From the IMG/VR virus record IMGVR_UViG_3300009418_000040, positions 1 to 40,082 of that record: a stretch of DNA of 40,082 nucleotides; one strand, given 5' to 3'. This document shows, piece after piece, positions 8,280-39,572 of this stretch (positions are counted from its first letter, which is position 1; every line of letters starts with the position of its first letter). Source of the stretch: a virus. The notes below the pieces were generated by a model. It was not told the DNA's origin, searched no databases, and worked only from the letters and a program-made list of their open reading frames with translations. Position numbers and translations under genes: made by a program.

Positions 8280-8368
8280 GTTTTCGGGTAGGAGAACAGA
8301 ATTTAGTGGTGTTAGTTCACCTTGAAGCCTAGCAAATAGCTCCTACCCGAGTTGCTAGGCTTTTTTTT
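8280..8368 (+). ncRNA. Leader RNA with competing helix and rho-independent terminator (attenuator-like)
   Basis: Terminator hairpin: AAGCCTAGCAA (8325-8335) pairs with TTGCTAGGCTT (8352-8362), with a run of eight T (8361-8368). Its loop contains CTCCTACCCG (8340-8349), a perfect 10-bp complement of CGGGTAGGAG (8285-8294). Only two bases separate that strand from the terminator's 3' arm, so both helices can hardly form fully at once. The upstream helix therefore looks like an antiterminator. A small extra hairpin (GGTG...CACC) lies near 8308-8321. The replication genes start 37 nt after the T-run with no promoter seen between, so this probably controls them. A second locus (38731) has the same architecture with different stem sequences. 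Confidence 0.75.
8361..8368 (+). terminator. T-run of the attenuator terminator
   Basis: Eight T follow an 11-bp stem (8325-8335 with 8352-8362), a canonical intrinsic terminator on the plus strand just before the replication operon. Confidence 0.75.
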
Positions 8369-8404: not shown

Positions 8405-8683
8405 ATGAGAGTAGTATATAAATATAAATTAGCAAGTAGTCAGCAGGTATTAGAGCTAAGAAGGGGCTTTAAGGTTGTTCATACTGGATCGCAAGGGATA
8501 CGTAATAGTGTAGGTGAGGAAAACTTCATATGGATTGAGCTAGACCTTGAAAATGCAATTGAAAATGTTGTGTTTCATACATTTGGAACAGGTCATAATA
8601 TAATGAATCCATCTTATAAGCATATTGGATCTATATTTAATGGTGCTTATGTTTGGCACATATACCAAGGGGGAGCAATATAA
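8405..8683 (+). CDS. DUF7352-like small phage protein (92 aa)
   Basis: Begins MRVVYKYKLASSQQVLELRR and contains 'HTFGTGHNI' and a terminal 'GAYVWHIYQGG'. This matches a widespread small phage protein pattern (VYKY at the start, VGTGH in the middle, VWH-x-(Y/F) at the end) labelled DUF7352. The role is unknown but it often lies near replication genes, as here. Shine-Dalgarno sequence GGGTAGG. The stop overlaps the initiator gene (TAATG). It lies just downstream of the attenuator RNA. Confidence 0.6.
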   Translation: MRVVYKYKLASSQQVLELRRGFKVVHTGSQGIRNSVGEENFIWIELDLENAIENVVFHTFGTGHNIMNPSYKHIGSIFNGAYVWHIYQGGAI

Positions 8684-11991: not shown

Positions 11992-12576
11992 ATGTCATTA
12001 ACACAAATACAAAACGAGCTACACGCTCCAAAGAATCAACGCAACGACTTCGGTAAATATAACTACAGAAGCTGTGAAGACATACTTGAGGCTGTAAAGC
12101 CTATATTACTTAAACATGATGCCACACTAACTATCTCAGATGAGGTTAAGGAGGCTAATGGATGGGCTTATATAGAGTCTATATGTGAGCTAGATGCAAG
12201 TGGCGTTAAATACACCACTAAAGCGCAGGCAGGCATCGAGAAGGCTGGCGGTATGGCGTTACCCCAAGCATTCGGTTCAGCCTCCTCATATGCCCGTAAA
12301 TACGCTCTAAACGCTATGTTCCTCATAGATGATACTAAGGATGCTGATGCTACTAACAAGCACGAGAAGGTAGCTGCAAAGCCATCAGTGGACTATGTAG
12401 CAGGCATCAGGAAGCTGTGTAAGGAAAGTGACCTTGAGTTCAGTGATGTAGCTAAGTGGGCATTAGCTGAGAAAAAGAAGGATATAAATATATCTGCTAA
12501 CGCTAAAGCACTTAGTAATAATTGGTCTAAGGTATTCCCAGAGATCAACGCTTGGCTAATTAAGGAGGGTAAATAA
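11992..12576 (+). CDS. ERF-family single-strand annealing protein
   Basis: A 194-aa protein with ERF hallmarks: 'FGKYNYRSCEDILEAVKPIL' (about 20-39) and the signature 'AFGSASSYARKYALNAMFLI' (93-112) followed by DDTKDAD. ERF proteins anneal complementary single strands in phage recombination. The partner exonuclease lies at 12874 and the SSB just upstream, a classic module. The C-terminal 70 residues are a variable helical tail. Confidence 0.88.
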   Translation: MSLTQIQNELHAPKNQRNDFGKYNYRSCEDILEAVKPILLKHDATLTISDEVKEANGWAYIESICELDASGVKYTTKAQAGIEKAGGMALPQAFGSASSYARKYALNAMFLIDDTKDADATNKHEKVAAKPSVDYVAGIRKLCKESDLEFSDVAKWALAEKKKDINISANAKALSNNWSKVFPEINAWLIKEGK

Positions 12577-16587: not shown

Positions 16588-16685
16588 ATTATCTTTATAT
16601 GTGGCTAGGGTAGCTCCTGAAAAGCGGAAACTTTCACCGCCTGCCATATAATATTAATGAAAGTAATTTAACAGAGAGATTAAAT
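16588..16685 (+). other. Intergenic stretch with possible hairpin
   Basis: Contains TGAAA-AGCGGAAAC-TTTCA and an alternative GCGG/CCGC pairing near 16617-16640, flanked by TGGC and GCCA. CCTGCCATATAA (16640-16651) is the exact reverse complement of 10789-10800, which overlaps the 3' end of tRNA-Gln and its downstream bases. No promoter or gene is seen. Confidence 0.3.
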
Positions 16686-17231
16686 ATGAAGGAAGTATGG
16701 AAAAATGTGGTTGACTGGGAGGGCTTATACCAAGTAAGTAATCTAGGCAGGGTAAAGAGTCTAAAGCGGATTGTTGATGGAAAAAATAACACTCCACGTG
16801 TCTTGCCAGAAAAAATAATAAGGCAATCACCCATAACTAAACATACCCTTAGGGTTAAGTTTACCATGACTTATCAAGGAGTCAGTAAGACGCTCTATAC
16901 CCATAGGGCGGTATTAGAAGCATTTAAAGGAATTTGCCCAAAAGGATTTGAGGGTTCTCATATAGATGGAAACCCTAATAATAATAGTTTAGATAATTTA
17001 ATATGGGAGTCTCATAAGGATAATATAGGCAGACAGATAGAGCATGGGACTAGAAATTTCGGGGAAACAAATGGATCTTCAAAGCTCAAAGGGCATGATG
17101 TCATAAACATAAGAAAACTACATAAGTCTAGTGATTATAGTTACGCAGATATTGGCAGGATATATAATACTACAGGAACTAACATAAGCTTAATTGTTAG
17201 GAGAAAAAGGTGGGATCACATTAAGCAGTAA
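16686..17231 (+). CDS. NUMOD4-HNH homing endonuclease
   Basis: A 181-aa protein. An N-terminal NUMOD4 motif (EVWKNVVDWEGLYQVSNLGR, residues 3-22, with 'VKSLKR') is followed by an HNH nuclease (YTHRAVLEAFKG; GSHIDGNPNNNSLDNLIW) and a C-terminal helix-turn-helix (YSYADIGRIYNTTGTNISLI). This is the classic free-standing phage homing endonuclease layout. It is the last plus-strand gene before the convergent late cluster. Confidence 0.9.
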   Translation: MKEVWKNVVDWEGLYQVSNLGRVKSLKRIVDGKNNTPRVLPEKIIRQSPITKHTLRVKFTMTYQGVSKTLYTHRAVLEAFKGICPKGFEGSHIDGNPNNNSLDNLIWESHKDNIGRQIEHGTRNFGETNGSSKLKGHDVINIRKLHKSSDYSYADIGRIYNTTGTNISLIVRRKRWDHIKQ

Positions 17232-38495: not shown

Positions 38496-38582
38496 AATAT
38501 TTTATAAAATAAGGGGCAATTTTATCATACTTTGTCCGAAATACCCCCCTATTTACTAATTTAATGTCTGTTTTTGTTTTTA
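38496..38582. other. Start of the portal-TerL insert, upstream region
   Basis: AT-rich spacer between the portal start (minus) and the first plus-strand small-RNA promoter. It holds the second copy of the 16-bp repeat (38542-38557) and a pyrimidine-rich stretch. No gene is seen. Confidence 0.4.
38542..38557. repeat. 16-bp repeat TACCCCCCTATTTACT, copy 2
   Basis: Identical to 36096-36111. Located between the divergent portal gene and small-RNA promoters. A shared regulatory-protein site is one possible reason for conservation. Confidence 0.8.
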
Positions 38583-38610
38583 TTGACATCTATCTGTGGG
38601 TATATACGTT
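38583..38610 (+). promoter_or_regulatory. Putative promoter of small RNA 1
   Basis: TTGACA (38583-38588), 16-nt spacer, TACGTT (38605-38610). Same layout as the early promoter at 1892. Confidence 0.5.
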
Positions 38611-38616
38611 ATTACA

Positions 38617-38687
38617 TAAGAATACCCCTCACGCCTCTATCGGCCTTGGGTCTACATAAGCGCAAAACAGAGGGGTTACTTTTTTTA
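38617..38687 (+). ncRNA. Putative small RNA 1 with terminator
   Basis: A transcript from the 38583 promoter would contain ACCCCTC (38624-38630) paired with GAGGGGT (38670-38676), followed shortly by seven T (38680-38686), an intrinsic-terminator-like end. The 39-nt loop contains a further short pairing (ACGC with GCGC). No open reading frame with a ribosome binding site is seen. Function unknown. Confidence 0.45.
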
Positions 38688-38696
38688 AAGAAATAG

Positions 38697-38724
38697 TTGA
38701 CACCTGTCTGTAATTGTCTATTGT
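38697..38724 (+). promoter_or_regulatory. Putative promoter of small RNA 2
   Basis: TTGACA (38697-38702), 16-nt spacer, TATTGT (38719-38724), only 10 nt after the terminator of small RNA 1. The spacer resembles that of the 38583 promoter (NCTNTCTGT). Confidence 0.6.
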
Positions 38725-38730
38725 TTGCAT

Positions 38731-38807
38731 TATTCCTTGGACGGACAGAGAATTTATTTTAAGGCTCTAGTGAAAGACCCGTCCAAGGTTCACTAGGGCT
38801 TTTTTTT
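38731..38807 (+). ncRNA. Small RNA 2: attenuator-like RNA, second copy of the 8280 architecture
   Basis: CCTTGGACGG (38735-38744) pairs perfectly with CCGTCCAAGG (38779-38788). The latter sits in the loop of a 14-bp terminator hairpin formed by 38761-38774 and 38789-38802 (two or three G-U), followed by eight T (38800-38807). Zero bases separate the 10-bp helix's 3' strand from the terminator's 3' arm; four bases separate terminator 5' arm and helix strand, as at 8336-8339. Both copies share ACAG(AG)AATTTA after the first strand, while stem sequences differ but stay complementary. Downstream lie a permuted tRNA locus and a GIY-YIG gene. Confidence 0.75.
38800..38807 (+). terminator. T-run of small RNA 2 terminator
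   Basis: Eight T overlap the end of a 14-bp stem (38761-38774 with 38789-38802); an intrinsic terminator on the plus strand. Confidence 0.75.
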
Positions 38808-38818
38808 ATGCCTACCAA

Positions 38819-39116
38819 GTAAGCGGTAATCCTCGATGCAGGTATAATCCGATAAAAGTAATATCTGTAGAGGCTCGGTAGCCCAGATCTATTCGTAAAA
38901 CAATGGATTGATAGTAATATATAAATAAGGTTAGTTAGAGCTTCTACAGATATTACTACAGTGGGGAGTAATGATTTAGAATGCCGACTCCCTGATGCAA
39001 CAATTTGATAGCACATGGGTTCAAATCCCACCCGTTCTTAGTAATGGAGGCGATAAGGATTAGCACTATCATTAGGGTTTGGGCAGCCAAATAACCAAGA
39101 GAGGACTTAAGCTTAC
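38819..39116 (+). ncRNA. Structured RNA element around the second permuted tRNA
   Basis: Outer pairing: GTAAGC (38819-38824) with GCTTAC (39111-39116) and TCCTC (38830-38834) with GAGGA (39101-39105), separated by a symmetric 5-by-5 internal loop. A 20-bp stem (38857-38876 with 38938-38957, one G-U) encloses a 61-nt loop. GGGGAGT (38963) can pair with ACTCCCT (38987). CATTAGGG (39070-39077), running out of the tRNA 5' half, pairs 8/8 with CCCTGATG (38990-38997) just before the 3' half. TTTGG/CCAAA forms a hairpin near 39079-39092. No coding potential is convincing. Layout parallels the element at 15010-15386. Confidence 0.55.
39006..39073 (+). tRNA. Second candidate permuted tRNA, degenerate
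   Basis: 3' half: TGATAG (39006-39011), short variable loop, T-arm ATGGG-TTCAAAT-CCCAC (one mismatch), acceptor CCGTTCT (39032-39038). After two bases the 5' half begins: GTAATGG (39041-39047, pairing 6/7 with two G-U), AG, D-arm GCGA-TAAGGAT-TAGC (3/4), A, CTATC then ATT. CTATCA (39066-39071) pairs perfectly with TGATAG across the permutation. The 5' half has exact canonical spacing. Position 8 is A, not U, and the anticodon is not readable, so it may be a decaying copy or a specialised RNA. Confidence 0.5.
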
Positions 39117-39147
39117 CTCCGCCCAATCAATTTAACAGAAAGATATT

Positions 39148-39489
39148 ATGAGTTTATTATATGTAATTAAATGCAATGAGTTTATTAAAATAGGAATATC
39201 AAGACATCCCAAAGAGAGACTAAAAGCTTTGCAGACTTCAAGTCCTTATAAGCTTAAAATAATTAAAACCTATAAAGTTAAACAAGCTCGTATATTTGAG
39301 CTAGTAATACATACGTTATTGAAACCCCATCATGTGAGACTTGAATGGTTCAATTGTAGTCCTTATATGGCTGATAAATGGATAAACAGATTAAATGAGT
39401 TTCATACTGACGATATAAAGAGCCTCAAGAAGATTATGCATAAGAGGGATTTAATAATTGAGAAGTGTAAGTCTTTTGAAATCAGGTGA
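39148..39489 (+). CDS. GIY-YIG endonuclease (T5orf172-like)
   Basis: A 113-aa protein. 'LLYVIKCNEFIKIGISRHPK' gives the Y-V-I ... K-I-G-I pattern in place of GIY ... YIG, with the conserved Arg in 'SRHPKERLKALQTSS'. The catalytic Glu is likely in 'QARIFELVIHTLLKPHHV', followed by 'EWFNCS'. This is the short single-domain form common in phages. It lies 31 nt after the second permuted tRNA element on the same strand, as a homing nuclease would beside its intron. Confidence 0.8.
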   Translation: MSLLYVIKCNEFIKIGISRHPKERLKALQTSSPYKLKIIKTYKVKQARIFELVIHTLLKPHHVRLEWFNCSPYMADKWINRLNEFHTDDIKSLKKIMHKRDLIIEKCKSFEIR

Positions 39490-39549
39490 GGTGTGTCTGC
39501 TCCTCTACAATTTATATACAAATACTATACTACTCTGTACTTGGTATAA

Positions 39550-39570
39550 ATATTCTAGAATTTAGAATAT
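39550..39570. terminator. Palindrome between convergent genes
   Basis: ATATTCTA-GAATT-TAGAATAT is a perfect 8-bp inverted repeat between the ends of the GIY-YIG gene (plus) and TerL (minus). An AT-rich bidirectional terminator or RNA stabiliser is possible; there is no strong T-run. Confidence 0.35.
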
Positions 39571-39572
39571 CC

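Follow-up and report, generated by a model that had tools for sequence, protein, structure and literature searches.

Positions 38735-38807 of an IMG/VR virus record (40,082 bases, analysed over its whole length and referred to below as the window) carry an apparent terminator whose loop can also pair with the start of the same RNA, and a second element, at 8284-8368, appears to be built in the same way. The locus raises the question of whether such an arrangement could have arisen by chance, whether the two elements are related to each other or to known RNAs, and what they might do for the phage.

Architecture of the two elements

When the sequence was read directly, the first element (RNA1, 38735-38807, + strand) was found to consist of a 10-bp helix A:A' and an 11-bp terminator stem B:B', interlocked so that the strands run A-B-A'-B', and then a T8 tract. 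The second (RNA2, 8284-8368, + strand) follows the same plan and order, with an 11-bp A:A', a B:B' of 9-12 bp and T8. Their parts are as follows.

38735-38744, +: RNA1 strand A, CCTTGGACGG, the 5' strand of A:A', forming 10 Watson-Crick pairs with 38779-38788
38745-38763, +: RNA1 linker L1, with ACAGAGAATTTA, weakly similar to the RNA2 linker
38764-38774, +: RNA1 terminator 5' arm B, GCTCTAGTGAA, 11 bp with 38789-38799, including one G-U
38775-38778, +: RNA1 B-A' spacer AGAC, 4 nt
38779-38788, +: RNA1 strand A', CCGTCCAAGG, inside the terminator loop
38789-38799, +: RNA1 terminator 3' arm B', TTCACTAGGGC, with an A'-B' spacer of 0
38800-38807, +: RNA1 T8 tract, directly after B'
8284-8294, +: RNA2 strand A, TCGGGTAGGAG, 11 bp with 8340-8350
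8295-8326, +: RNA2 linker L1, with ACAGAATTTA, containing a small hairpin GGTG-TTAGTT-CACC at 8308-8321
8327-8335, +: RNA2 terminator 5' arm B, GCCTAGCAA, 9 bp with 8352-8360
8336-8339, +: RNA2 B-A' spacer ATAG, 4 nt
8340-8350, +: RNA2 strand A', CTCCTACCCGA, inside the terminator loop
8352-8360, +: RNA2 terminator 3' arm B', TTGCTAGGC, with 1 nt separating A' and B'
8361-8368, +: RNA2 T8 tract

Minus its hairpin, the RNA2 linker is 18 nt long, and B:B' of RNA2 extends from 9 to 12 bp if flanking A-T and G-T pairs are counted, reaching into the T tract. The original prediction was correct in giving both elements a four-base spacer between the terminator 5' arm and the helix strand (AGAC in RNA1, ATAG in RNA2), a near-zero spacer before the 3' arm (0 and 1 nt, respectively) and an eight-T tail (38800-38807 and 8361-8368).

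Both RNAs have the stem directly before a U tract that characterises intrinsic terminators (11 bp in RNA1, 9-12 bp in RNA2, T8 each). With intrinsic (Rho-independent) terminators and leader attenuators they share this stem running directly into T8 and a site ahead of genes; they differ in that the loop, and not an arm, pairs upstream, giving the order A-B-A'-B' with no competing hairpin. That order of two helices, with a short linker across the deep groove, is also that of H-type pseudoknots, the steric room being given by a rough A-form estimate only; in RNA1 and RNA2, however, A' and B' are contiguous, a long linker joins the outer ends, and the second stem is a terminator. Skipping-rope RNA (Rfam RF02924, an 80-position model) is likewise pseudoknotted and is named as a pseudoknot in the literature (PMC7779021, Figure 3), but as an identity for RNA1 and RNA2 it was rejected, with 0 covariance-model matches in the window at E<=10.

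Predicted pseudoknot geometry and energetics

The whole window was scanned for T tracts preceded by a stem in which the end of the loop can pair with upstream sequence. RNA1 and RNA2 scored 57 each, compared with a best score of 44 when the window was dinucleotide-shuffled 400 times and both strands were scanned. Other loci, viral and bacterial (2.57 Mb), contained 108 long-loop terminators, in which loop-to-upstream pairing had a median of 10 and a maximum of 21, against 27 and 29.5 in RNA1 and RNA2, which are also two of the three strong intrinsic terminators recognised in the 40-kb window by a simple criterion. The structure of the two elements is far beyond chance, and both are confirmed as real, non-random sequence features, structurally unusual putative terminators in one phage; the pseudoknot that would tie each terminator loop to the 5' end of its own RNA is a prediction.

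Either helix is strong taken singly: in the two RNAs, duplex A:A' alone was estimated at -17.9 and -20.2 kcal/mol, and the terminator hairpin alone at -17.9 and -19.7 kcal/mol. When folding was restricted to nested pairs, A:A' was preferred over the terminator stem as the minimum-energy fold in both cases. The terminator loop is large (14-16 nt), and strand A lies 34-45 nt ahead of A'. We infer that both helices can coexist, because A' lies between the arms, overlaps neither and is contiguous with B', and because the 4-nt spacer can span the deep groove: an ideal A-form estimate, which is rough, puts the distance to be crossed at ~25-29 A for a helix of 10-11 bp. The distance was calculated in both directions, and the strands were assigned on the model of H-type pseudoknots, with the spacer taken as the counterpart of loop 1.

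The third strong intrinsic terminator (10904-10876, - strand) lies 8 nt upstream of a tRNA-Gln gene on the same strand. It was rejected as a further pseudoknot, having only 5 loop-upstream pairs (AGGAG), which is chance level.

Relationship between RNA1 and RNA2, and search for relatives

The two RNAs have their geometry in common and hardly share sequence. Their alignment over the A-to-A' region was equalled by 236 of 5000 mononucleotide and 526 of 5000 dinucleotide shuffles, and, once the RNA2 loop hairpin had been removed post hoc, by 2 and 20 of 5000, respectively; the regions upstream show no similarity, 1781 of 2000 shuffles aligning as well. The ACAG-AATTTA block that had been proposed as common is present in both linkers, but it is weak, requires a 2-nt gap and lies in an alignment marginally above shuffles. 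The stems do differ in sequence while remaining complementary in each RNA, yet the reading of this as covariation is unsupported, because the stems are without a homologous alignment and two unrelated pseudoknots would look alike.

Relatives were sought in IMG/VR with gapped patterns combining the common block and GGCTTTTTT. Two complete scans returned 44 and 3 stretches, none of which had the fold, and a looser scan returned at least 119, with the fold in none among the matches listed. Searching 50,697 phage records by blastn with both leaders (E<=10) gave no match over RNA1 or RNA2, blastn of the RNA1 region against plasmids gave none over RNA1, and Rfam 15 covariance models, at gathering thresholds and at E<=10, gave nothing credible over either RNA. 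When 4.14 Mb of other DNA, viral and bacterial, was scanned for the geometry, with complete or partial records of related phages among it, no equal element was revealed. The same was true of the loci fetched for relatives of the DnaB, replication-initiator, phosphoesterase and GIY-YIG genes, and no pseudoknotted terminator of this kind was seen near Abi_2 genes in 35 loci scanned. DUF7352 relatives gave no phage match, and no portal relatives were found in bacterial genomes. A near-identical 27-kb contig ends inside the portal and DnaB-like genes, short of both RNAs, which leaves the locus without another copy for comparison.

The proposal of an undescribed phage RNA family thus found no relatives in the IMG/VR patterns, blastn or Rfam; nor did the IMG/VR patterns, the 50,697 phage records, Rfam or the 4.1 Mb scan yield any further phage match with compensatory changes, a result that largely speaks against it. 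The nearest match of the geometry scans, at 12309-12370 (+) of locus L376 (virus record G025, 113 kb), was a terminator with a loop that both contains a hairpin and pairs with a strand upstream; it was not counted, because of that hairpin and because no spacer separates B from A'. Two weak candidates in another locus (L077) were AT-rich, at chance level, and were discarded.

Genomic context

RNA2 stands between a - strand phosphoesterase gene and the first gene of a long + strand run that includes a DnaB-like helicase gene:

8405-8683, +: DUF7352 gene, first gene after RNA2 (Pfam PF24043, 62.8 bits)

The DUF7352 start codon lies 36 nt past the T tract of RNA2, and a likely ribosome site falls within those 36 nt. 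Since this gap is too short for an ordinary promoter plus a ribosome site, and since the gene on the far side of RNA2 is on the - strand, transcripts entering the replication operon very probably cross RNA2, judging from its position. No RNA2 promoter was recognisable.

RNA1 lies in a different setting, with the following neighbours:

38583-38597, +: box TTGACATCTATCTGT, in front of an abiF-like RNA; same box as 38697-38711
38621-38687, +: putative orphan abiF-family RNA with a T7 tail, 60 nt upstream of RNA1 and separate from it
38697-38711, +: box TTGACACCTGTCTGT, preceding RNA1
38697-38724, +: promoter-like TTGACA-16-TATTGT, 10/12 consensus matches, ending 10 nt before RNA1 strand A
38857-38876 / 38938-38957: 20-nt inverted repeat
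39148-39489, +: GIY-YIG type gene (T5orf172/MUG113) downstream of RNA1, with Pfam PF13455 (57.1 bits) and PF10544 (45.2 bits), domains which we take to belong to GIY-YIG

The promoter-like element, with a predicted start at ~38731, adjoining strand A, is suggestive only; 5 such sites were observed in the RNA1 region against 3.1 expected. The gap from RNA1 to the next gene is 340 nt.

In portal relatives of 56-81% identity the terminase gene is directly upstream of the portal gene, ~60-70 nt apart, whereas the window has 1,077 nt of + strand material in this position (38496-39572). The insert containing RNA1 is absent in related phages wherever the upstream region is present; by this comparison, it is a cassette of ~1 kb gained in this phage or lost in its relatives. 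It holds the abiF-like RNA, RNA1, the inverted repeat, a tRNA T-arm-like stretch and the GIY-YIG type gene.

Possible roles

We tentatively favour the view, held at somewhat short of even confidence, that RNA1 and RNA2 are pseudoknot-clamped intrinsic terminators acting as leader attenuators in cis, the short RNA that they release being protected at its 5' and 3' ends alike; attenuation in cis is the likeliest role for both elements. The terminator stem and the A:A' helix would form together as an A-B-A'-B' pseudoknot. A:A' would pair as A' leaves the polymerase, bringing B beside B' so that the large-loop hairpin closes more easily. A helix of 10-11 bp has a deep groove that the 4-nt spacer would bridge if A' and B' were stacked into a single strand. 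RNA2 would thereby limit transcription into the replication operon and RNA1 into the GIY-YIG cassette, both in cis, and the short RNA released would have its 5' part clamped into the 3' terminator. The main support for attenuation is the leader position of RNA2, an argument from location. The strength of each helix, the scores above those of shuffles and of other long-loop terminators, and the promoter-like element before RNA1 also favour this view; the nested-fold preference for A:A', the unrecognisable RNA2 promoter and a search for relatives that gave none with compensatory changes weigh against it. The original designation as attenuators accordingly fits RNA2, placed before the replication operon, and is doubtful for RNA1, whose gene is 340 nt away. 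Should the pairing be real in the cell, it would show that terminators can be built or tuned by way of the loop, and the small RNA produced would have neither end exposed.

Alternatively, and with a lower but still appreciable probability, both could be stand-alone small RNAs working in trans, with both ends hidden by a stable pseudoknot scaffold; a target mRNA or protein would be presented with either the single-stranded linker (ACAG..AATTTA) or the fold as such. This possibility is favoured by the promoter-like element immediately ahead of RNA1, by the confinement of RNA1-RNA2 similarity outside the stems to the linker, and by the location of RNA1 after a putative RNA of the abiF family, a trans-acting class (PMC12373285), with the same upstream box. 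However, the linker similarity is marginal, ACAGAATTTA has no exact complement in the window, and RNA2 sits in a leader position.

It is unlikely that A:A' and B:B' exclude each other. Were they exclusive, A:A' would be an antiterminator, with read-through as the default and termination turned on by a factor binding strand A; this reading is favoured by the nested fold, in which A:A' is the minimum-energy result in both RNAs. In classical attenuators the antiterminator takes a terminator arm; here A' overlaps neither arm, and the spacers suit coexistence of the two helices.

Plain terminators that insulate + strand units within - strand gene blocks, with a loop-upstream pairing of no role, would agree with both elements lying at the starts of + strand units among - strand genes and with T8 tracts typical of terminators, but are improbable given 10 and 11 perfect extra pairs in RNA1 and RNA2 and pairing scores of 27 and 29.5 where the best of 108 other long-loop terminators reached 21.

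A probable orphan abiF-type RNA upstream of RNA1

RNA1 and RNA2 themselves do not match abiF RNA (Rfam RF03085); the member-like RNA is the separate element 60 nt upstream of RNA1. Against RF03085, 38621-38687 scored 29.5 bits, below the gathering threshold of 37 (E 4.8e-5 for that family in the window). Our own model, R1, for which 15 bacterial abiF RNAs were used, scored it at 34.7 bits (E 5.3e-8), compared with a maximum of 20.2 bits on 1.54 Mb of other viral DNA; 25 matches in loci that carry Abi_2 genes, the sources of the model among them, span 18.6-74.8 bits, a range that includes this value. Long-loop bacterial abiF RNAs have AATACCC, GCCTCT and GGGTTACT in common with it, and where the Fermentibacteria copies carry GGCCTTtGGTC in the variable loop, the RNA of the window has GGCCTTgGGTC. 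It does not stand in front of an Abi_2 gene, none being detected in the window at E<=1, although part of the genome may be missing from the contig. The window matches TTGACAYCTRTCTGT exactly at two places only, 38583 and 38697, and this box before both the abiF-like RNA and RNA1 may loosely tie the two.

The Clostridioides difficile abiF RNA RCd22 is an antitoxin of AbiF, active in cis and in trans, and Cas13 has been traced back to relatives of AbiF (PMC12373285). In phage PhiTE, an antitoxin-like pseudo-ToxI RNA allows evasion of a type III system (PMC3475682). Given these precedents, the orphan abiF-type copy in this phage is a candidate mimic of the AbiF antitoxin. By the same analogy, the portal-terminase insert might as a whole be an RNA counter-defence cassette, resembling PhiTE pseudo-ToxI (PMC3475682), in which the abiF-type RNA would neutralise a host AbiF toxin and RNA1 would serve as another structured decoy, of a kind not recognised so far, and RNA2 would be a paralogue of RNA1; we consider this extension improbable. 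The orphan RNA may matter more than RNA1 and RNA2; it would extend phage RNA mimicry of antitoxins to AbiF.

Two minor observations concern other RNA-like sequences. The tRNA T-arm-like stretch of the cassette (GGGTTCAAATCCC, 39005-39056, +) resembles phage tRNA genes by blastn (E 0.6); a tRNA or tmRNA at ~38960-39040 was rejected, as ARAGORN called it only with much relaxed thresholds. Elsewhere in the window, the leader that precedes a gene for a NUMOD4-HNH endonuclease (16686-17231) contains an int-alpA RNA (RF02996, 51.6 bits; 16598-16664, +).
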